Position numbers and translations under genes: made by a program. The notes below the pieces were generated by a model that was not told the origin of the DNA, did no database searches, and saw only the letters and a program-made list of their open reading frames with translations. DNA of 64,000 nucleotides from Nitrososphaeria archaeon. Lineage in GTDB: Archaea; Thermoproteota; Nitrososphaeria; Nitrososphaerales; JACAEJ01. Shown here in pieces: positions 6,053 to 15,123 of this stretch; position 1 is the first letter of the stretch; each line of letters begins with the position of its first letter. Location of the stretch: assembly GCA_029775925.1 (NCBI GenBank), contig JARVKB010000004.1, positions 1 through 64,000 on the forward strand, read 5' to 3'.

Positions 6053-6296
6053 TAGGAGAAGCAACGTGAATTAAAGCTTTTGAGCCTAATACGCTCTCAA
6101 TTTTTGATATAAAATGCCTGGCAACCTCTTCATCTGTTGCTGAAAACATTATAATTGCATCAAACGATCCTATAAGCATGTAGGCAGATAGAATCTCGAT
6201 TCCAGGCTCTAAGTCTGAAAATATTAGCCTTTTTATCAGATCCGATAAAGCATCAGACTTGCCTATTCCTGCTTTTAATATTGCAACAATTAGCAT
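6042..6296 (-). CDS. Small Lrp/AsnC effector-domain or GYD-like protein
   Basis: ORF 84 aa; LSAYMLIGSFDAIIMFSATDEEVARHFISKIESVLG pattern, no HTH. Confidence 0.5.
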   Translation of the reverse strand: MLIVAILKAGIGKSDALSDLIKRLIFSDLEPGIEILSAYMLIGSFDAIIMFSATDEEVARHFISKIESVLGSKALIHVASPIKP

Positions 6297-6633
6297 ATGA
6301 TTTTCAACCAGCTTTTAAATAGAAGTTTATCAATATAAAATCATTTACATCATTATTTGTTAAGGAAAGATCTGACTATCAATTCTATTCGAATTCTTTC
6401 TAGCTACTTTGGCTTATTCCGAACCTTTCAATTATAGAAAAACTCCATAAAGAGCTATGTTGATATTGAAGAAGCATTAACTTATTGAGTGTCGTTTATT
6501 GTTAGAATAAGCCTATTTAATTAGTAAAGCATCATGTATTTGGATGTAATGATGATCGGGATGGGATTCAGAAGAAATATAAATGGAACAATTAGTAAGA
6601 CATATTAATTAAAAAATTTTAGGGGTAATCAAT

Positions 6634-7026
6634 TTGAAGATAAACTCCAAATTAATCATAAGCTTAAGTATTCTCTTCTTAATAACTGGTGTAGCGTGGA
6701 TAATTTTTGCAATTCTTAATGAGGGAACTATACTTCTTCTAGAACCTGGAATAGCAAATCTCATTACTGGAATTCTATTATTAACAAAATTTGGAGGAAG
6801 ATACGCTAGAGCTTTAGTCTTAGCGTCTGGAGTATATAGCCTCATAATATGTTCTTATCAGCTCTATGCTTCTATTAATATATTGAGGATAGGCTTAACG
6901 ATATTCACAATTGCTTCTTTGTTAGGCTATACTTTAGGCTCATTAGCTTTCCTTTCCGTTATAATAGTAGCATATATGAATTCCCAGGCTTTTATATCGT
7001 CTACCAATCAAAAAGATAAGAGTTAA
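6634..7026 (+). CDS. Membrane protein of unknown function
   Basis: ORF 130 aa with several hydrophobic helices. Confidence 0.55.
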   Translation: MKINSKLIISLSILFLITGVAWIIFAILNEGTILLLEPGIANLITGILLLTKFGGRYARALVLASGVYSLIICSYQLYASINILRIGLTIFTIASLLGYTLGSLAFLSVIIVAYMNSQAFISSTNQKDKS

Positions 7027-7038
7027 GATCGATAGTTC

Positions 7039-7365
7039 TTACTTCTTTAATTCAACCTTTATTTCTCTTATTAAGTTGATCCCTAAAGAAGCTATCTTTC
7101 CTCCGGCCATCATGATAAAGAACATAAGTAAAAACCAAAAGAGCATGGCTAAAAGCTTACCTATTTCTTCACCGGAGAATACCAGCATTTCTCCTCCATC
7201 AGGTGTAGTGATATAAATGTTATGGAAGTTGAACAACCTTGGTGGAGGAGTAACACCAGTAAAGACGCTAAACATAAAGTAAACAGAAGTAAGGATCATT
7301 ACAACTCCGAGCGTAAGAAGAATATATCCAACAACTTTCTCATATTTTGACTCCATTCCTCTCAT
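7039..7365 (-). CDS. Membrane protein of unknown function
   Basis: ORF 108 aa, two hydrophobic segments. Confidence 0.55.
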   Translation of the reverse strand: MRGMESKYEKVVGYILLTLGVVMILTSVYFMFSVFTGVTPPPRLFNFHNIYITTPDGGEMLVFSGEEIGKLLAMLFWFLLMFFIMMAGGKIASLGINLIREIKVELKK

Positions 7366-7474
7366 TAATCAAATTTTAGTAAAGTATAAAAAGATGGTTT
7401 TAATATAAAACTTGCCAAATAGTAAATTCTTTTTAATAGCCTAATTTAGTTTTATAAGCAATCTTGGAAGATCG

Positions 7475-8545
7475 GTGCTAAGTATGGACATAGAAGAAAA
7501 AATGAACATAATCAACAGACCACCTACTGAGGAAATAGTCACTATCAATGATCTTAGGTTGCTTTTAGAAAATAAAGAGCATCCAACACATTATATAGGT
7601 TTTGAGATTTCAGGGCTTATGCATATAGGTACTTTATTAATATCAGGCTTTAAAATAAACGATTTCATAAAGGCAGGAATTGATTGTAGAGTATTCTTAG
7701 CAGATTGGCATAGCTATATCAACAATAAGTTTGGTGGGGATTGGGATAAAATAAGAATAGCATCTAAATATTATGAAGAAGCCTTCAAATTTTTTTGTCC
7801 TGGAGTTAAGGTAGTTCATGGATCGGAGCTATATAGTGGAAATGATGAGTACTGGAAGAATCTAGTAAAATTTTCAAAGCATATAACGTTAGCAAGAAAT
7901 ATTAGATGCTTAACAATTATGGGAAGAAGTAAGAAGGAAAAGTTAGATTTTGCCCAATATTTATACCCTCCTATGCAAGCTATAGATATTAAGGCTATGG
8001 ATATCGATATAGCTCACGCTGGGATGGATCAGCGTAAAGTTCATATGCTGGCACGAGAAGTATTCCCGAAGTTAAGATGGAAAGTACCTGTAGCTATTCA
8101 TCATAGCTTGCTTCCAGGGTTGTCTGAACCTTCTCGTTTAGGATTGGACGAAAATTCTAAGCTTGATACAATTTTCTCCAGTAAGATGAGTAAATCTAAA
8201 CCCTCTACTTGTATATTCATTCATGACGATGCCGATGAAATTGAGAAGAAAATACAAAAGGCATGGTGCCCGGAAGGCATCGTAGAGTATAACCCGATAT
8301 TAGAGATGGCAAAGCAAATAATCTTTCATGAGTTTAATACTTTAGAAATCGATAGGCCTGCAAAATTCGGTGGAAAGATAATTTTTGAAGATTTTTACGA
8401 GTTAGAAAAGGCTTATAAAGAAAAAAGACTTCATCCAGCAGATTTGAAAGCAGGAGTAGCAAAAGCTATTGATAAGATAGTAGCACCAATAAGGTCTCAT
8501 TTTAAGGGTAAGCCTGAACTACTAGAAGTCTTTAAATCTGATTAA
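7475..8545 (+). CDS. tyrS: Tyrosyl-tRNA synthetase
   Basis: Class I aaRS; HIGTL and KMSKSKP motifs, ...AHAGMDQRKVHMLARE. Confidence 0.85.
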   Translation: MLSMDIEEKMNIINRPPTEEIVTINDLRLLLENKEHPTHYIGFEISGLMHIGTLLISGFKINDFIKAGIDCRVFLADWHSYINNKFGGDWDKIRIASKYYEEAFKFFCPGVKVVHGSELYSGNDEYWKNLVKFSKHITLARNIRCLTIMGRSKKEKLDFAQYLYPPMQAIDIKAMDIDIAHAGMDQRKVHMLAREVFPKLRWKVPVAIHHSLLPGLSEPSRLGLDENSKLDTIFSSKMSKSKPSTCIFIHDDADEIEKKIQKAWCPEGIVEYNPILEMAKQIIFHEFNTLEIDRPAKFGGKIIFEDFYELEKAYKEKRLHPADLKAGVAKAIDKIVAPIRSHFKGKPELLEVFKSD

Positions 8546-8553
8546 ATAGTAAA

Positions 8554-9111
8554 TTATCGATAATATTCTGGTTCTATCCTTCTAAGGAAGTAAAAAGTGT
8601 AAAAGGATATTATTGTTATTGAGAGAAATATTTTCGTAGCAAAGACAAGATTAAAACGCACTTCAGGGTTAGGAAAAGGATTGATAAGTATGTCAGGGTT
8701 TAGCTCGCCCAATATTTCGCTGGCACTCATAAGACTTCCCCAAAGAGTAAAGTTGAACAGAACCTCGTACAAAGCCATGGATCCTGCAAAGAAAGCGATT
8801 AACATGAATAAGTGTCTAGCGAATTTGGGAAATTTTGATATCATTTCCTTATTTAATTCAAGGAGTGAAAACCAAAAGACAATTAAAGATGCCATAAACC
8901 AGGTTATAGGTTTGGCGTAAATTGGAAAAATTGTAGGAGGAGGAAATTCTGTATTAACGAAAGTCTCTCCGACGACCTTTACCCCATACATTAACGTAGT
9001 AATTGCGCCATAAACTGTAACTGTAATTAAGATGATAAAAGAAATGAGACAGATTATTTTGTACATGATTCTGATTTTATTTTCTTCTTTAGATGAATTC
9101 ATCAATCTCAA
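8554..9111 (-). CDS. Membrane protein of unknown function
   Basis: ORF 185 aa, about four hydrophobic helices. Confidence 0.55.
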   Translation of the reverse strand: MRLMNSSKEENKIRIMYKIICLISFIILITVTVYGAITTLMYGVKVVGETFVNTEFPPPTIFPIYAKPITWFMASLIVFWFSLLELNKEMISKFPKFARHLFMLIAFFAGSMALYEVLFNFTLWGSLMSASEILGELNPDILINPFPNPEVRFNLVFATKIFLSITIISFYTFYFLRRIEPEYYR

Positions 9112-9165
9112 ATTTATTCCTTGATGACTTTTATGTACTTAAAAACTTTGCTTCTCCTATATCAC

Positions 9166-9195
9166 TTTATTATAGGAATTAATTCCTATAATAAA
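9166..9195. repeat. 30-bp perfect palindrome TTTATTATAGGAATT/AATTCCTATAATAAA
   Basis: Read directly; intergenic between the divergent 8554-9111(-) and 9734-10393(+) genes. Confidence 0.9.
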
Positions 9196-9653
9196 ATTAT
9201 TAAAATCAAAAATATTCGTAAGAAACAAATTTTTTATAGCTATTGGCAAGATTAATAAAGCCTGAAAAATTAGTTATTTATATTAAGATGTTGATAACAA
9301 ATAAGCTTATTTAGTGTAATGTCGGTCCATCATTTTAGATAAATTCAATGCATACAACTTTGCTCTCTAATAGATTAATCATCACCGAATTTATCCATCA
9401 TTGCTAAATCGATCTAGGTACGAAAGAAGGACTAACAACATAAGCAATTTATTATCCTTTTACTAAATTGGATCTAACTATAAAGGGAAGCAAGTGAATG
9501 TGTTGTAAATTTTTGTTATAAATTGCCCATATTAATCTAAATTTCTAGAAGTGAAAGTTCGTGAACGAATCGAATAAAAAATTAGCATTAGTAAATAGCT
9601 AAAGGAAATGAAGAATAAGGTGTGAATCTTTTTGGTGTTTAGGATGTATTAAT

Positions 9654-9675
9654 CAAGTGCAAAAATATTTTTGCA
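9654..9675. promoter_or_regulatory. Candidate operator CAAGTGCAAAAATATTTTTGCA (contains 18-bp palindrome at 9658-9675)
   Basis: Identical 22-nt string occurs at 56618-56639, upstream of the second methyltransferase operon. Confidence 0.65.
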
Positions 9676-9733
9676 TCAAGGAAGAATAGAAGAAAAATTT
9701 AAAAAAAACAACGTTATTTATAATCGAAAACAA

Positions 9734-10393
9734 ATGTCCCAGGAAGAAATTTTAGCCGAACTTGCTAAAGCAGTGATAGACGGTGACGTGGACAAGGCAA
9801 AGTATTTGGCACATAAAGTATTGGAGTTAAAAATAGATCCTTATAAAGCTATCATGGATGGATGCGCTGCAGGAATGAGGATAGTGGGGGAAAAATATCA
9901 AAATGGCGAAATGTTCATTCCTGAGTTACTATATTCAGCTGAAGCGATGTATGCTGCAACAGACGTCTTAAGCCCTCACATAAAAGCAGAAAAAATTCCA
10001 TATAGCGGTAAGGTAGTAATAGGTGTTGTTGAGGGCGATATACATGATATTGGCAAGAACATCTTGGTAACACTTTTAAAGGCAAGTGGGTTTGAAGTTG
10101 TAGACTTAGGCAGAGATGTGCCGACAAAAGATTTTGTGCAAAAAGCAAAGGATGAAAAAGCAGAAATCATAGCCATGTCAACTTTGATGACCACAACAGC
10201 TCCAGGAATGAAAAAGGTCATAGATGTATTGTATGAGGAGGGTATAAGAGATAAGGTAAAGACTATTATTGGAGGAGCAGCCGTTTCAAAAGAATTTGCT
10301 AAGGCTATAGGTGCAGATGCTTATGGAGAAGAGGTAGTCGACGGCGTAGAGATGGTCAAAAATCTTATGAGTTCTATTAAGAGAGGGGGATGA
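9734..10393 (+). CDS. Corrinoid (B12-binding) methyltransferase corrinoid protein, MtaC/MtbC/MttC family
   Basis: MSQEEILAELAKAVIDGD..., GDIHDIGKN B12-binding motif, ...IIGGAAVS. The track start at TTG 9671 falls inside the palindrome; ATG 9734 preferred. Confidence 0.88.
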   Translation: MSQEEILAELAKAVIDGDVDKAKYLAHKVLELKIDPYKAIMDGCAAGMRIVGEKYQNGEMFIPELLYSAEAMYAATDVLSPHIKAEKIPYSGKVVIGVVEGDIHDIGKNILVTLLKASGFEVVDLGRDVPTKDFVQKAKDEKAEIIAMSTLMTTTAPGMKKVIDVLYEEGIRDKVKTIIGGAAVSKEFAKAIGADAYGEEVVDGVEMVKNLMSSIKRGG

Positions 10394-11457
10394 AAAGTTT
10401 GGTAAAACCAATTGAAAGAGTTGTAGCTGCCTTAACATATAAGGATCCGGATAGGGTTCCTGCTGCACCATTAGTTTGTGGAGCATCAAGAAGAGTTTAT
10501 GGAGTTACATACGATGTTTGGTCTAGGGACCCTGTTATTGCTGCCAAATCTCTTATTGCTGCACAAGAGTTGATAGGTTTTGATGGTTTCTTGACATTAG
10601 TGGACTTGAGCGTAGAGCCCGCTGCCTTCGGTCAAAAAGTCTTATATCCTGTCGAAAGTACTGCTTTATCCGCAGCTTTCAAAGGTGATATGTTAATAAA
10701 GAGCGTAGACGATTACGATAAACTCGAATATGTAGACCCTAAAAAAGCTGACAGGATGAGAGATGTGATAAAAATCTGTGAGATACTTGTTCAAGCGAAA
10801 GGAAAAGAAGTTCCAACTTTGGGATTTGTATACGGTCCTGCCGGAACCCTATCTATGATGAGAACTTTAGAGAAGCTTAGTTTAGACCTAGTGAAAAATA
10901 AGTCAGCAGTTCTTAAAGGGCTGAAAATCGTAAATGATGTGCTATTTGATTACGCAAAAGCTCAGTGTGAAACAGGAGTTCCAGGGGTCGTTCTAGACGT
11001 TCTTTACGCATCAAAAATGATATGGAGTAGAAAGACATACGATGAGTTTGAAGGTCAGTTATGTTCAAAAATCGCTGATGAAATAAGAAAGCATAATGCT
11101 CTTGTAGTACTTCATAACTGTGGCCATGGGCCCTTCTTTGACACGATGATAAGCTGGTATAAGCCTGCCGCAATATCGTTCCACTATGTTCCTGATGATT
11201 GCAAAGACTATGCTGACACAAAGGAGAAGTATGGGAAAAAGACTGTACTGATAGGTCAAGCTGACAATCCTAAAGTAATCTACCCAGGTACTCCTGAAGA
11301 AGTTATGAACCATTGTGCGGAACAAATTAAAGTATATGGTCCCGGTAGTGGTTTCATACTTGCCACAGGTTGTGAATTTCCACCTAACGCTTCATTACTG
11401 AACGCTAGAGCAATGATAGAGGCTGCTGAGAAGTATGGTAAGTATCCAATGGCTTAA
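10390..11457 (+). CDS. Uroporphyrinogen decarboxylase-family methyltransferase (MtaA/MtbA/MtoB-like)
   Basis: UroD fold; HNCGHGP zinc-type motif; C-terminal GFILATGCEFPPNASLLNARAMIEAAEKYG; ATG overlaps the stop of the corrinoid gene. Confidence 0.85.
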   Translation: MKSLVKPIERVVAALTYKDPDRVPAAPLVCGASRRVYGVTYDVWSRDPVIAAKSLIAAQELIGFDGFLTLVDLSVEPAAFGQKVLYPVESTALSAAFKGDMLIKSVDDYDKLEYVDPKKADRMRDVIKICEILVQAKGKEVPTLGFVYGPAGTLSMMRTLEKLSLDLVKNKSAVLKGLKIVNDVLFDYAKAQCETGVPGVVLDVLYASKMIWSRKTYDEFEGQLCSKIADEIRKHNALVVLHNCGHGPFFDTMISWYKPAAISFHYVPDDCKDYADTKEKYGKKTVLIGQADNPKVIYPGTPEEVMNHCAEQIKVYGPGSGFILATGCEFPPNASLLNARAMIEAAEKYGKYPMA

Positions 11458-11975
11458 CCATTGGGTACTTCATTTTTCTTTTTTTGAATTATCAATCGAA
11501 TCAAAGATGGATTTATTCCTTCTAACCATTCATTAGGTGCTTTTTCAACACTCGAGAGTGGGGCAAGCTTCACTATTCTTTGTTTTGCTCCAAGTTTGAT
11601 GAGCTCTACAACAAGAAATAAGAAAATCTTTCCATTCATTATGCCTATGTCCATGGCATACGTTCTGAAACCTTCTTTTATACGATACCTTCTTGCCGTT
11701 ATTCTGGCTAGAAATCTTGCTTCAAGCTTAGAGTAAAGTGAAGGACTTACAGTAGGAGGGAGTTTACTTGGAACTTCTCTTAGTTCATCTATTCTTTTTT
11801 CAAGTTCTAATAACATCTTCCGAATCTCTTCAGGGTTTTGCCTATTTTCTAATCTAAATCCTTCTATAGTGATATTCTCGTACTGTGATTCTTCTATCAA
11901 GGGATAAATTTCTATAGCTGAAGGGTAGTCCTGACAAAAAATGATATGTATTTCTTCATCCTTTGTTTCTGACAT
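11454..11975 (-). CDS. Hypothetical protein, last gene of the methyltransferase accessory operon
   Basis: ORF 173 aa, convergent with the UroD-type methyltransferase (4-nt overlap). Confidence 0.6.
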   Translation of the reverse strand: MSETKDEEIHIIFCQDYPSAIEIYPLIEESQYENITIEGFRLENRQNPEEIRKMLLELEKRIDELREVPSKLPPTVSPSLYSKLEARFLARITARRYRIKEGFRTYAMDIGIMNGKIFLFLVVELIKLGAKQRIVKLAPLSSVEKAPNEWLEGINPSLIRLIIQKKKNEVPNG

Positions 11976-12006
11976 GAAACATCATCTTAAAATATGAATT
12001 AAATTA

Positions 12007-12498
12007 TTACTCATTCTTTTTTCGTTCCTCTTCCTTTGGTTGTATTGGAATGTCGAACTTATCAAAATACTCATGCTCTTTCTCAATTTCTATATTAAAA
12101 CCATAATTCAACAATACTTCATTCGAAGCCTCAAGAGTCGCCATCTTGACTTGAGATTTGTCTATTCCCTGTACTATGCTATTTATAACAAGGTACGCTT
12201 GAGTTATAGGCTCTGTTATGCTACTTTCAACATAAACTCCTTTTTCTAAGCCTATCGTATCTGCTTTTAGGTACCCGTGTTTGGTCTTCATATAGGATTT
12301 TATATGACCGATGAATTTTGCACCTTTCTCAATACAATAGGAAGCTATTCTTAACATTAACTTATTACCCATCTCTTTGATAGCATCTATATTGATAGGC
12401 TCTGATCGAGTAAGCCTAAAAGCAACAGCGTAGCCACTTACGCCAAAGGGCTCATAGCATGCTTTAGTTGAACTGCTTTCAACCTTTTCTGAACTCAT
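12007..12498 (-). CDS. Hypothetical protein in the accessory operon
   Basis: ORF 163 aa between 11454 and the CobW-like gene; family not recognised. Confidence 0.6.
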   Translation of the reverse strand: MSSEKVESSSTKACYEPFGVSGYAVAFRLTRSEPINIDAIKEMGNKLMLRIASYCIEKGAKFIGHIKSYMKTKHGYLKADTIGLEKGVYVESSITEPITQAYLVINSIVQGIDKSQVKMATLEASNEVLLNYGFNIEIEKEHEYFDKFDIPIQPKEEERKKNE

Positions 12499-12512
12499 GA
12501 ATTAATCACCTT

Positions 12513-13148
12513 TTATCTTATCTGATAAGCTGGATATTCTACAGGCTCTGTAATAAGCTTCGCCAATTCTACCATACCGTCTCCTCTAATAGAGGATATT
12601 CTCATGATTTTTGCTTTCTGGTTTATCTTTTTAACTTCCTGCTCACAATCAACTAACTGCTCCTCATTTACAACATCGATCTTACTTATGGCTATAATAT
12701 CTGCATCAGAGATTTGCCTGATCACTATGTTTCCTAATATGTCATTGAAGAGCAGCTCTTCCGGTCTTGTCGCATCGAATAAAACAACAGCCGGTCCCAA
12801 ATTTATGTCACAATCTCTTTTTGCCATAAGGGCGGCCAACTTAACTTGATTTGGTATAGCTACTCCTGTCGGCTCTACTAAAATAAAGTCAGGTTTAAAG
12901 GTTTGAGATAGTAAAATGAGTGTATTAGTAAAGCTTGTGGCTATCTCACAACAAATGCAACCTCCACCTAAGTCTTTAACTCTTAACCCATACTCTTCTA
13001 CAACCTTGCCATCTACAGGAATCTCTCCAATTTCGTTTACAACCAGAGCAACTCTCTTTTTAAAATCACCACTTAAAGTTCTAGCCAAGGATATTATGGC
13101 TGATGTTTTTCCAGAACCAAGAAAGCCTGCTATCTGAATTATTCTCAT
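12513..13148 (-). CDS. CobW/HypB/UreG-like P-loop GTPase (metallochaperone type)
   Basis: GFLGSGKTSAI Walker A, GGGCICCE metal motif, SKIDVV. Confidence 0.8.
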   Translation of the reverse strand: MRIIQIAGFLGSGKTSAIISLARTLSGDFKKRVALVVNEIGEIPVDGKVVEEYGLRVKDLGGGCICCEIATSFTNTLILLSQTFKPDFILVEPTGVAIPNQVKLAALMAKRDCDINLGPAVVLFDATRPEELLFNDILGNIVIRQISDADIIAISKIDVVNEEQLVDCEQEVKKINQKAKIMRISSIRGDGMVELAKLITEPVEYPAYQIR

Positions 13149-13173
13149 AACTAGGATAAAGAGTATTTCCCTC

Positions 13174-15123
13174 TTATATTTTTCTTATAACTGGTCGTCC
13201 AATGGCTGATACTTTTATTTCTGACCAAACGAAACCTACTTTTGGGAATATTCCATCTCTCCTATCTATCTTAATCTTTAAGTCCTCTGCACCAGATCTT
13301 TTAGCTAACTTTGTAGCTTCTTCTGTCCCCATCTTTATTGCAAAGTTTATGGCTTCTTCTATGGTTCCAAAAATATATCTTCCTGGGAATACCACATACC
13401 TATCAGGTTTTACCTCTTTTGCTATGTACATCTCAAAAGAACCTATCACACTCCCAACAAGGGAACCTACAGCTGCTCCAACTTCATGATGTTCAGGTAT
13501 GATTGCTAAAGTTCCAAGCCTTCTAGCCACTTCTGGTAAAAATAGGTAGACTGGTGCACCTATGCCTATCAATGGTATATCCAGCTTTGCTAGAACTCGA
13601 AAATCTCCATCATTATTTCCATCAGAAATCTTTCTTATTATTTCAGAGCATGCTATACATTTTTGATTTAAATCCCATTTATTTAGCTTTAACATCATCT
13701 TTTCAAATATTCTCGATACCAACTTTTCTACAATCAATTGCCATATCTTTTTTTGAAGCTCGTCAAGCGTCATTCCATTCTTTCTGGCGAAAAGGTCGGC
13801 ACCCAGGATAGCAGCATCAACGTCTCCTGCAGTATAAATCCCCTTTGCATGCATGATATCTGTTGGAGTTAAGCCTATCCCAATTATGTACCCTCTCTCC
13901 ATCAGGAACGAAATCAACAAATCAGCGATGGGGAAATCTGTCATATTATTGCTTATCTCAAGAAGGGTTGTTGGCTCCAGCTCTTGAACCGTCTTTAGAA
14001 ACTTTTCAGACAATCCGCCTATGTTTTCGGCTTTCCGAGGTGCCTGACTGACGGTAATAAAATCTGTAGTCTTGTATTGTTCCATCTTCTTTAGTAAATT
14101 AGGAAATATTGATGCAGCAAATGCAAGAGGTATAACTCTTTGTGGACCTAAATCGATACCTTTTTCAGGATCTATATGTATCCATCCATCTCCTCCTATT
14201 CCCCAAGCATCAGCATCTACTGCCTTTACTCTTGTCTTCCAGCCTGCAATACGAACTCCGTCCTCAACCACGTGAGGGGCATTCCCTTTGGAAGTTGTTA
14301 TTATCGATGTTGTACTTCCCATGTCTATTACTACGGCATCTTCTTTGCCAGCTAGGAATAGCCCACCAAGTACACTTGCTGCAGGTCCTGACTGAATTCC
14401 TTCTATCGGTCTTTCTAAAGCAACTTCTTCATTCATAAGAGAACCGTCACCTTTTACTATCATTAAGGGTACATTCAAGCCCTTCTGATCTAATGCATCT
14501 CTTATTTCTCTTATGAGATTTTGGACTATAGGAATTAGCCTTGCGTTAAGGACCGCTGTAACAGTCCTCTCATAAATTCCGAGCTCTGTTGCAAGTTCAT
14601 ATCCACAAGTGACTGGTTTTCCAGTCTTTTTCTTTATCCATTCTTTGACAGTCAATTCATGCATCGGATTTCTTACGCTAAAGTATCCTGATACTGCAAA
14701 GGAGTCAACATTTTTATTCATATTTTCAATGGTTAAGATGACTTCATCTATATCTAACTGTGCTTGTTCAACACCGTCAGGTCCATGGCCTCCTTTAACA
14801 GTCATGATTGTTGCTGCAGGTATGTCCCAAGTTTTCTCAGGTTCAAATCCAATTAAAATCAAGCCGACCTTTGCACCTTTTCCTTCAATGACAGCATTTG
14901 TGGCAAGAGTTGAAGCAAGAGAAACCAAAACAATTTCATTCGCAGGAATACCGCTGATCGATAAAACCTTATTTATCGATTCAATGATTCCAACAGATAA
15001 ATCATAATGCGTTGTCCTTGATTTTGTCTTTGCAACTATTTTCTTATCGTCCATTCTCATAATTACTGCATCTGTATGAGATCCGCCCGTGCTTACACCT
15101 ATCCCAAACAATAATCTCACCAT
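13174..15123 (-). CDS. Hydantoinase/oxoprolinase-family ASKHA protein, candidate corrinoid-protein reactivase
   Basis: GVSTGGSHTDAVIM, ...STLATNAVIEGKGAKVGLIL, VIDMGSTTSIITTSKG motifs; adjacent to the corrinoid methyltransferase genes. Confidence 0.75.
   Translation of the reverse strand: MVRLLFGIGVSTGGSHTDAVIMRMDDKKIVAKTKSRTTHYDLSVGIIESINKVLSISGIPANEIVLVSLASTLATNAVIEGKGAKVGLILIGFEPEKTWDIPAATIMTVKGGHGPDGVEQAQLDIDEVILTIENMNKNVDSFAVSGYFSVRNPMHELTVKEWIKKKTGKPVTCGYELATELGIYERTVTAVLNARLIPIVQNLIREIRDALDQKGLNVPLMIVKGDGSLMNEEVALERPIEGIQSGPAASVLGGLFLAGKEDAVVIDMGSTTSIITTSKGNAPHVVEDGVRIAGWKTRVKAVDADAWGIGGDGWIHIDPEKGIDLGPQRVIPLAFAASIFPNLLKKMEQYKTTDFITVSQAPRKAENIGGLSEKFLKTVQELEPTTLLEISNNMTDFPIADLLISFLMERGYIIGIGLTPTDIMHAKGIYTAGDVDAAILGADLFARKNGMTLDELQKKIWQLIVEKLVSRIFEKMMLKLNKWDLNQKCIACSEIIRKISDGNNDGDFRVLAKLDIPLIGIGAPVYLFLPEVARRLGTLAIIPEHHEVGAAVGSLVGSVIGSFEMYIAKEVKPDRYVVFPGRYIFGTIEEAINFAIKMGTEEATKLAKRSGAEDLKIKIDRRDGIFPKVGFVWSEIKVSAIGRPVIRKI

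Follow-up and report, generated by a model that had tools for sequence, protein, structure and literature searches.

A candidate corrinoid methyl-transfer module with a probable split COG0523 GTPase and an altered HyuA-type protein in a Nitrososphaeria archaeon

The locus described here lies in a window of 64,000 nucleotides, the whole stretch of DNA that we analysed (positions 1 to 64,000 of contig JARVKB010000004.1, assembly GCA_029775925.1, Nitrososphaeria archaeon). Its six genes, at positions 9734-15123, are predicted to encode a corrinoid protein, a UroD-type methyltransferase, a HyuA-type protein of the ASKHA (acetate and sugar kinase/Hsc70/actin) superfamily, a short CobW-type GTPase, and two small proteins of 163 and 173 amino acids (aa) (Table 1). 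A first-pass annotation made from the letters alone had placed these genes and named domains for four of them; the open reading frames (ORFs) bore out the places of all six, and Pfam and NCBIfam the named domains. The host is an archaeon of hot-spring type. Its genome (G000 in our numbering of genomes, with G for genome, C for contig, L for locus and f for family; the window is on contig C23) comprises 1.40 Mb in 34 contigs and has a completeness of 96.35%. The corrinoid protein and UroD genes share an ATGA overlap. On the minus strand the ASKHA, CobW, 163-aa and 173-aa genes are spaced by 25, 14 and 31 base pairs (bp), and the two groups converge with a 4 bp overlap between the 3' ends of the UroD and 173-aa genes. 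Comparison with a sister genome (G002) gave ratios of nonsynonymous to synonymous substitution (dN/dS) of 0.055 to 0.106, the value for ASKHA coming from its C-terminal 190 codons only, where the sister contig starts. All six genes are under purifying selection, which indicates that the two small genes are real.

Table 1. Genes of the locus, with positions in the window.
Feature	Position	Strand	Basis
MtaC/MtmC-type corrinoid protein, 219 aa	9734..10393	+	TIGR02370 220.6 bits; PF02310, PF02607; GDIHDIGKN
UroD-type methyltransferase, 355 aa	10390..11457	+	PF01208 172.8 bits; MtaA-like zinc ligands HNC, GCE
173-aa protein, without assigned family	11454..11975	-	Strong matches in G000 and sister G002 only
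163-aa protein, homologue of fused-CobW C-terminal domain	12007..12498	-	Homology, AlphaFold model
Short COG0523/CobW-type G3E GTPase, 211 aa	12513..13148	-	PF02492 113 bits; motifs GFLGSGKT, CICC, EPTG, SKID
HyuA-type ASKHA protein, 649 aa	13174..15123	-	PF05378, PF01968; Ser11 for phosphate-1 Asp

The first-pass annotation had proposed that the two facing operons form one module, and the linkage is kept in three other genomes. The sister genome has all six genes in the same arrangement (L056). In two Methanomethylicia-like genomes of a class other than the window's (G112, locus L050; G119, locus L051), a single strand carries, in this order, the genes for the corrinoid protein, UroD, ASKHA, CobW and the 163-aa protein. 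The orientation in these two genomes thus differs from that in the window, and we take the convergent layout of the window to be a rearranged form of a single unit. The intergenic gaps in G112 are at most 72 bp; downstream of the cluster, and on its strand, come CbiM and more ORFs, the last of them for an ABC transporter ATPase. Among 398 genomes of the phylum, ASKHA orthologues scoring above 600 bits were found in five (G000, G112, G119, G160 and G281), with the next best match at 154 bits. UroD orthologues (E<1e-40) were found in three of the 398 (G000, G112 and G119), and all three adjoin the ASKHA gene. Outside the phylum, one scan of genome contigs returned only the sister metagenome-assembled genome (MAG), other phyla being otherwise unsearched.

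The corrinoid protein exceeds the curated cut-off of TIGR02370 (215.3 bits). It has B12-binding (PF02310) and B12-binding_2 (PF02607) domains and the cobamide-binding motif DxHxxG, present as GDIHDIGKN, and its nearest solved relative is the trimethylamine corrinoid protein 7xcn. Its partner UroD contains a URO-D domain and, when aligned to MtaA (PDB 4ay7), the HxC...C zinc ligands, which are common to all eight UroD proteins aligned, that of the window included. A tree built from 19 UroD proteins placed the window protein and those of G002, G112 and G119 in a clade of their own with a support of 1.000, separate from the UroD genes that adjoin mtaB. In the sister genome, DsrE-family genes and an ORF that appears TusA-like by eye lie 118 bp upstream of the corrinoid protein-UroD pair and on the same strand (L056:4168-6074); neither was seen upstream of the pair in the window. 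From these genes, and from the lack of a separate methyltransferase 1 (MT1) in the four clusters, we would guess that the substrate of UroD is perhaps a methylated sulfur compound.

A further gene pair encodes CobW and the 163-aa protein. CobW has the cobW domain, P-loop, CxCC motif and Walker B Glu of COG0523 proteins. It does not score as the CobW of cobalamin synthesis (TIGR02475, 68.3 bits against a cut-off of 332.1) or as a CobW-related selenoprotein (NF041053, 132.2 bits against a cut-off of 180; its CICC motif contains Cys). The 163-aa protein, one of two proteins first listed as unknown, has no match in Pfam, CobW_C included. Within its own genome it aligns with the C-terminal part of a 355-aa CobW (C23:75035-75427, E 1.5e-12), and in the sister genome with a small gene adjoining a second CobW; its homology to fused CobW C-termini rules out that it is an orphan. 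A profile of the family matched 23 of the 398 genomes, mostly in family f20, which is probably Methanomethylicia judging from gene content. From the profile matches we inspected 17 further regions that contain CobW and the 163-aa protein, and in eight of these (L099, L100, L102, L107, L108, L109, L111 and L114) the pair or fusion adjoins UroD, corrinoid protein-UroD or mtaB/RamA genes. CobW and the 163-aa protein are best read, from these alignments, as a putative two-chain COG0523 metallochaperone in which the 163-aa protein would be the detached C-terminal part.

Structure predictions were compared with this reading. The AlphaFold model of the 163-aa protein has an alpha/beta, ferredoxin-like fold with a predicted local distance difference test (pLDDT) of 84 and a predicted template modelling score (pTM) of 0.75. 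Its best VIA matches were TON_0450, MoaC and ferredoxin-like folds at Z about 8.6, which is the level of common arrangements, and we dropped these matches as a guide to function. YjiA was outside the 50 best VIA rows for this model and appeared in the Foldseek list at E 0.03. For the fused CobW-163aa protein, a model of only fair quality (pLDDT 73.6), the best Foldseek match was Zn-bound YjiA over 360 columns. VIA aligned the GTPase domain alone, and this domain is about equally close to MeaB (Z 13-14) and YjiA (Z 13).

Some neighbours of these genes recur. The fused gene of the host genome has as neighbours an aldehyde ferredoxin oxidoreductase gene, a ferredoxin gene and a member of a 194-aa family that lacks a Pfam match (L055, G000:C23:66000-85900, at 6187-10118), and the 194-aa family is found again in the mtaB/RamA clusters L107, L108, L109 and L114 of f20. 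In L100, L102 and L103 the CobW-163aa pair is accompanied by a conserved 600-aa family that Pfam does not match and by a gene of about 586 aa. L100 and L102 also have an Fe-S/CCG (HdrD-like) protein upstream of the corrinoid protein.

A connection between CobW-type proteins and corrinoid methyltransferases has been in print since 2009 and is not new. According to Haas et al. 2009 (PMC2770081), most archaeal COG0523 proteins co-localise with the corrinoid methyltransferase genes mtaA, mtaB, mtaC and ramM, the group beside these genes in methanogens being subfamily 13, and MtaA and MtaB are described there as zinc-dependent. The locus studied here has in common with subfamily 13 an archaeal CobW-type GTPase linked to corrinoid methyltransferase genes, and differs in having the GTPase and its probable C-terminal domain as two chains and a gene for a HyuA-type ASKHA protein beside them. 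The word hydantoinase is absent from the main text of Haas et al. (PMC2770081). This precedent together with the MtaA-type zinc ligands kept in UroD makes zinc delivery the most economical task for CobW. The linkage of the genes is observed in the genomes above, and the likeliest task of CobW and the 163-aa protein would be to deliver zinc to UroD.

ASKHA contains the domains Hydant_A_N (PF05378, 93 bits) and Hydantoinase_A (PF01968, 85.9 bits), and its solved relatives are 5-oxoprolinase, N-methylhydantoinase and acetone/acetophenone carboxylase subunits. The Asp of the phosphate-1 loop is expected to matter for ATP chemistry. This residue is Ser in all five full-length orthologues (Ser11 in the window protein); the copy in the sister genome is incomplete, with only the C-terminal part, and is not among the five. 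The Asp is kept in four further HyuA proteins from the phylum with lengths of 524-528 aa, in two of greater length (703 and 705 aa), and in those solved relatives that were shown; two alignment rows from L062, chosen by length alone and not HyuA by eye, were excluded from this count. Cys173 is the one Cys invariant among the five full-length members. A CxxC at 489-492 was considered as an Fe-S or metal site and rejected, being not conserved outside the genus. ASKHA is not RamA or RACo: it has no conserved Fe-S cysteines and no match to RACo_C_ter (PF14574) at E<=1, a domain that the RamA and RACo of the host genome do match. The HyuB partner (PF02538) was found in none of the 12 genomes examined, and the positive control matched in 6 of 14. 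The absence of HyuB and the change of Asp to Ser led us to reject an ordinary hydantoinase as the main reading of ASKHA.

The last of the six, the 173-aa protein, stayed without an assigned family, as first described: it has no Pfam or NCBIfam family and its PHROGs matches are at chance level. Among 30 genomes examined, strong matches were confined to the host and its sister (dN/dS 0.106). In G011 a weak match (1.4e-4) was taken as chance, since it contains a stop and runs antisense to an ORF for a membrane protein. The 173-aa protein is genus-specific.

MtaB, MtmB, MttB, MtrH and RamA were not found among the 27 window proteins scanned with Pfam (96 ORFs were listed), in agreement with the first reading, which had seen no MtaB/MtbB/MttB-type and no MtrH-like protein in the window. 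Elsewhere the genome encodes MtaB, RamA and RACo, and by TIGR02370 it has four corrinoid proteins. One other cluster contains MtaB (634.9 bits), corrinoid proteins, UroD proteins and RamA. Another, L064 (C23:107000-124000), contains RACo, a corrinoid protein and two UroD proteins, one of them above the PRK06252 cut-off; it is possibly a type 1 mlp-like cluster in a Nitrososphaeria archaeon, as far as its gene content indicates. An MT1 or MT2 partner and a RamA elsewhere that clearly serve this corrinoid protein had been named as a point that would count against the first reading; MtaB, RamA and RACo do occur, beside other corrinoid proteins.

We give a probability of roughly 0.5 to the reading that the six genes are a self-contained module for corrinoid methyl transfer, in a lineage of methyl-reducing (H2-dependent) methanogens or in a near relative of one. 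The corrinoid protein would be the methyl carrier, as in its family, and UroD, with its MtaA-like zinc site, would move the methyl group between the corrinoid and a thiol. The methylthiol:coenzyme M methyltransferase MtsA/MtsB consists of a UroD-type enzyme and a small corrinoid protein, with no separate MT1. Because none of the four clusters showed a separate MT1, UroD probably performs both half-reactions, as MtsA does with MtsB on methylated sulfur compounds. The split COG0523 GTPase, CobW with the 163-aa protein, would most likely supply zinc to UroD, or alternatively provide the carrier with cobalt or cobamide. ASKHA would be a dedicated ATPase-type accessory that acts with CobW and the 163-aa protein on the methyltransferase or the carrier, putatively with the help of ATP.

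The locus of the sister genome is on JARVKD010000016.1 of Nitrososphaeria archaeon JZ2_bin.220247, a MAG described in PMC10833072 as having an mcr complex and corrinoid methyltransferases and as a possible H2-dependent methylotrophic methanogen (compare PMC6783470 and, for the Methylarchaeales, PMC9478090). McrA was matched in 22 of 25 genomes examined, namely G002, G004, G005, G006 and all 18 of f20. Unlike other family members, G000, G001 and G003 had no McrA match among these 25, which reflects either loss or a missing contig. The F430-gene model TIGR03282, used as a test of the methyl acceptor, matched one of 11 genomes (G160) and did not separate them. Genomes that have McrA and no match to this model (nitrogenase-like methanogenesis marker 13) are G002, G004-G006, G112, G119 and G281.

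Several observations weigh against a self-contained methyl-transfer module. UroD falls under every curated MtaA, MtbA and CmuA cut-off (TIGR01463, 100.4 against 235.4 bits; PRK06252, 113.6 against 244; MtaA, 79 against 400; MtbA, 82.5 against 600), and the hint of sulfur comes from a single genome, the sister. The host genome has no McrA match, so coenzyme M would be only a putative acceptor there. G160 and G281 carry ASKHA without other genes of the module adjacent. Nine of the 17 CobW/163aa regions have no UroD or corrinoid neighbour (L098, L101, L103, L104, L105, L106, L110, L112 and L113); of these L103 ends at a contig edge, and L101 is convergent to nitrogenase-like genes that we read as F430 genes. 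The fused CobW-163aa gene of the host adjoins the aldehyde ferredoxin oxidoreductase gene. The unlinked regions and this fused copy indicate that the CobW/163aa pair is not bound to methyltransferases alone. Likewise the lone ASKHA genes, and a patchy presence in family f1, where of seven genomes examined only the host and its sister have the ASKHA gene, indicate that the module is an accessory trait.

The first-pass annotation had read ASKHA and CobW as a different solution to corrinoid reactivation, and the support for this as stated is positional only. We regard it as doubtful that ASKHA is a new, Fe-S-free, ATP-dependent reactivator in place of RamA or RACo. Its ASKHA-type HyuA domains and its presence in a corrinoid cluster fit such a role, it occupies the place that RamA has in the mtaB/RamA/CobW-163aa clusters of f20 (L107, L108, L109 and L114), and no RACE-like gene was noticed by eye among the listed neighbours in the clusters of G000, G002, G112 and G119. 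However, the missing RACo_C_ter match, the single invariant Cys and the Ser in place of an Asp that the host's own RamA retains all argue against it, as do the RamA and RACo encoded elsewhere in the genome; activation of the corrinoid protein by that RamA is possible. A replacement of RamA by CobW did not hold up, CobW-163aa fusions being found in RamA-containing clusters also.

It is likewise unlikely that CobW and the 163-aa protein serve the corrinoid protein, either by loading or guarding the cobamide, in the manner of MeaB with methylmalonyl-CoA mutase, or by delivering cobalt. The CbiM and ABC transporter ATPase genes after the 163-aa gene in G112 and the equal closeness of the GTPase domain to MeaB and YjiA are consistent with such a task, but the cobalt genes are linked in one genome only, and in L099 and L111 CobW/163aa lies beside UroD with no corrinoid protein matched in the stretch examined. 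The precedent of the COG0523 family, in the section cited (PMC2770081), also favours zinc.

We think it quite improbable that ASKHA is a working ATP-dependent amidohydrolase, of the hydantoinase/oxoprolinase type, and releases a methylated compound that the methyltransferase then uses. Apart from its HyuA domains, this idea draws on HyuA-type genes near corrinoid methyltransferases elsewhere: in L054 of G229, at MA4395-96 of Methanosarcina acetivorans (in the portion of PMC11619418 concerned) and in glycine betaine clusters (likewise PMC9768040). It is opposed by the lack of HyuB in the 12 genomes and by the change of the phosphate-1 Asp to Ser, a residue that other HyuA proteins of the phylum retain. 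L054 (on G229:C53) contains S-Me-THD (DUF917) and a 526-aa HyuA; adjacent to these are a gene for a corrinoid protein and two that encode about 455-460 aa each, of which one is an MtmB by Pfam. That two unrelated operons are adjacent by chance, as their convergence in the window would allow, is very hard to reconcile with the five collinear genes of G112 and G119, both of another class, where all five share a strand.

Returning to the methyl-transfer module, its parts are mostly of known kinds. The UroD-corrinoid pair resembles MtsA/MtsB, as these are generally described, in lacking a separate MT1. UroD shares the URO-D family and the HxC...C zinc ligands with MtaA, and differs in its scores below the cut-offs and its separate clade. 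MtsA and MtsB are both named by Kountz and Balskus (PMC10418091), who also describe type 1 mlp clusters, in which UroD-type Mlps and a corrinoid protein are thought to act on methyl-S or methyl-Se compounds. Those clusters have Mlp2, Mlp3 and a Ram/RACE activase; the window module, by contrast, has one UroD and no adjacent RACE. With RamA and RACo it has in common an ASKHA-type ATPase in a corrinoid cluster, but one without PF14574 and the Fe-S cysteines and with an altered phosphate-1 loop. With HyuA of hydantoinases and oxoprolinases (6yra, 7hk5) and with the acetophenone and acetone carboxylase subunits it has in common the Hydant_A_N and Hydantoinase_A domains, but not a HyuB partner or the phosphate-1 Asp. 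In the literature searched we found no paper that joins a corrinoid protein, hydantoinase, methyltransferase and CobW in archaea, or Methanomethylicia, methyltransferase and CobW, which is no proof of absence from print.

What remains new is the fixed partnership with an altered, HyuB-less HyuA-type ASKHA protein, and this ATPase is the unexplained addition to the module. A more far-reaching and rather speculative idea is of a new maturation or reactivation machine for a corrinoid methyltransferase, driven by ATP and GTP and made up of ASKHA, CobW and the detached C-terminal domain. It would work without the Fe-S clusters of RamA and RACo and with the phosphate-1 Asp traded for Ser, as the private kit of one kind of UroD. 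The question for ASKHA is why a hydantoinase-type ATPase that is without its nucleotide-loop Asp and its HyuB partner should remain so firmly tied to a methyltransferase. For methyl-reducing methanogens outside the Euryarchaeota, the methyl substrates have mostly been guessed at from the names of genes. A small archaeal family, that of the 163-aa protein, can now be read as the probable missing half of split CobW proteins, and a corrinoid module with its own metallochaperone would make it possible to test how COG0523 GTPases are linked to the zinc, or cobalt, sites of methyltransferases.

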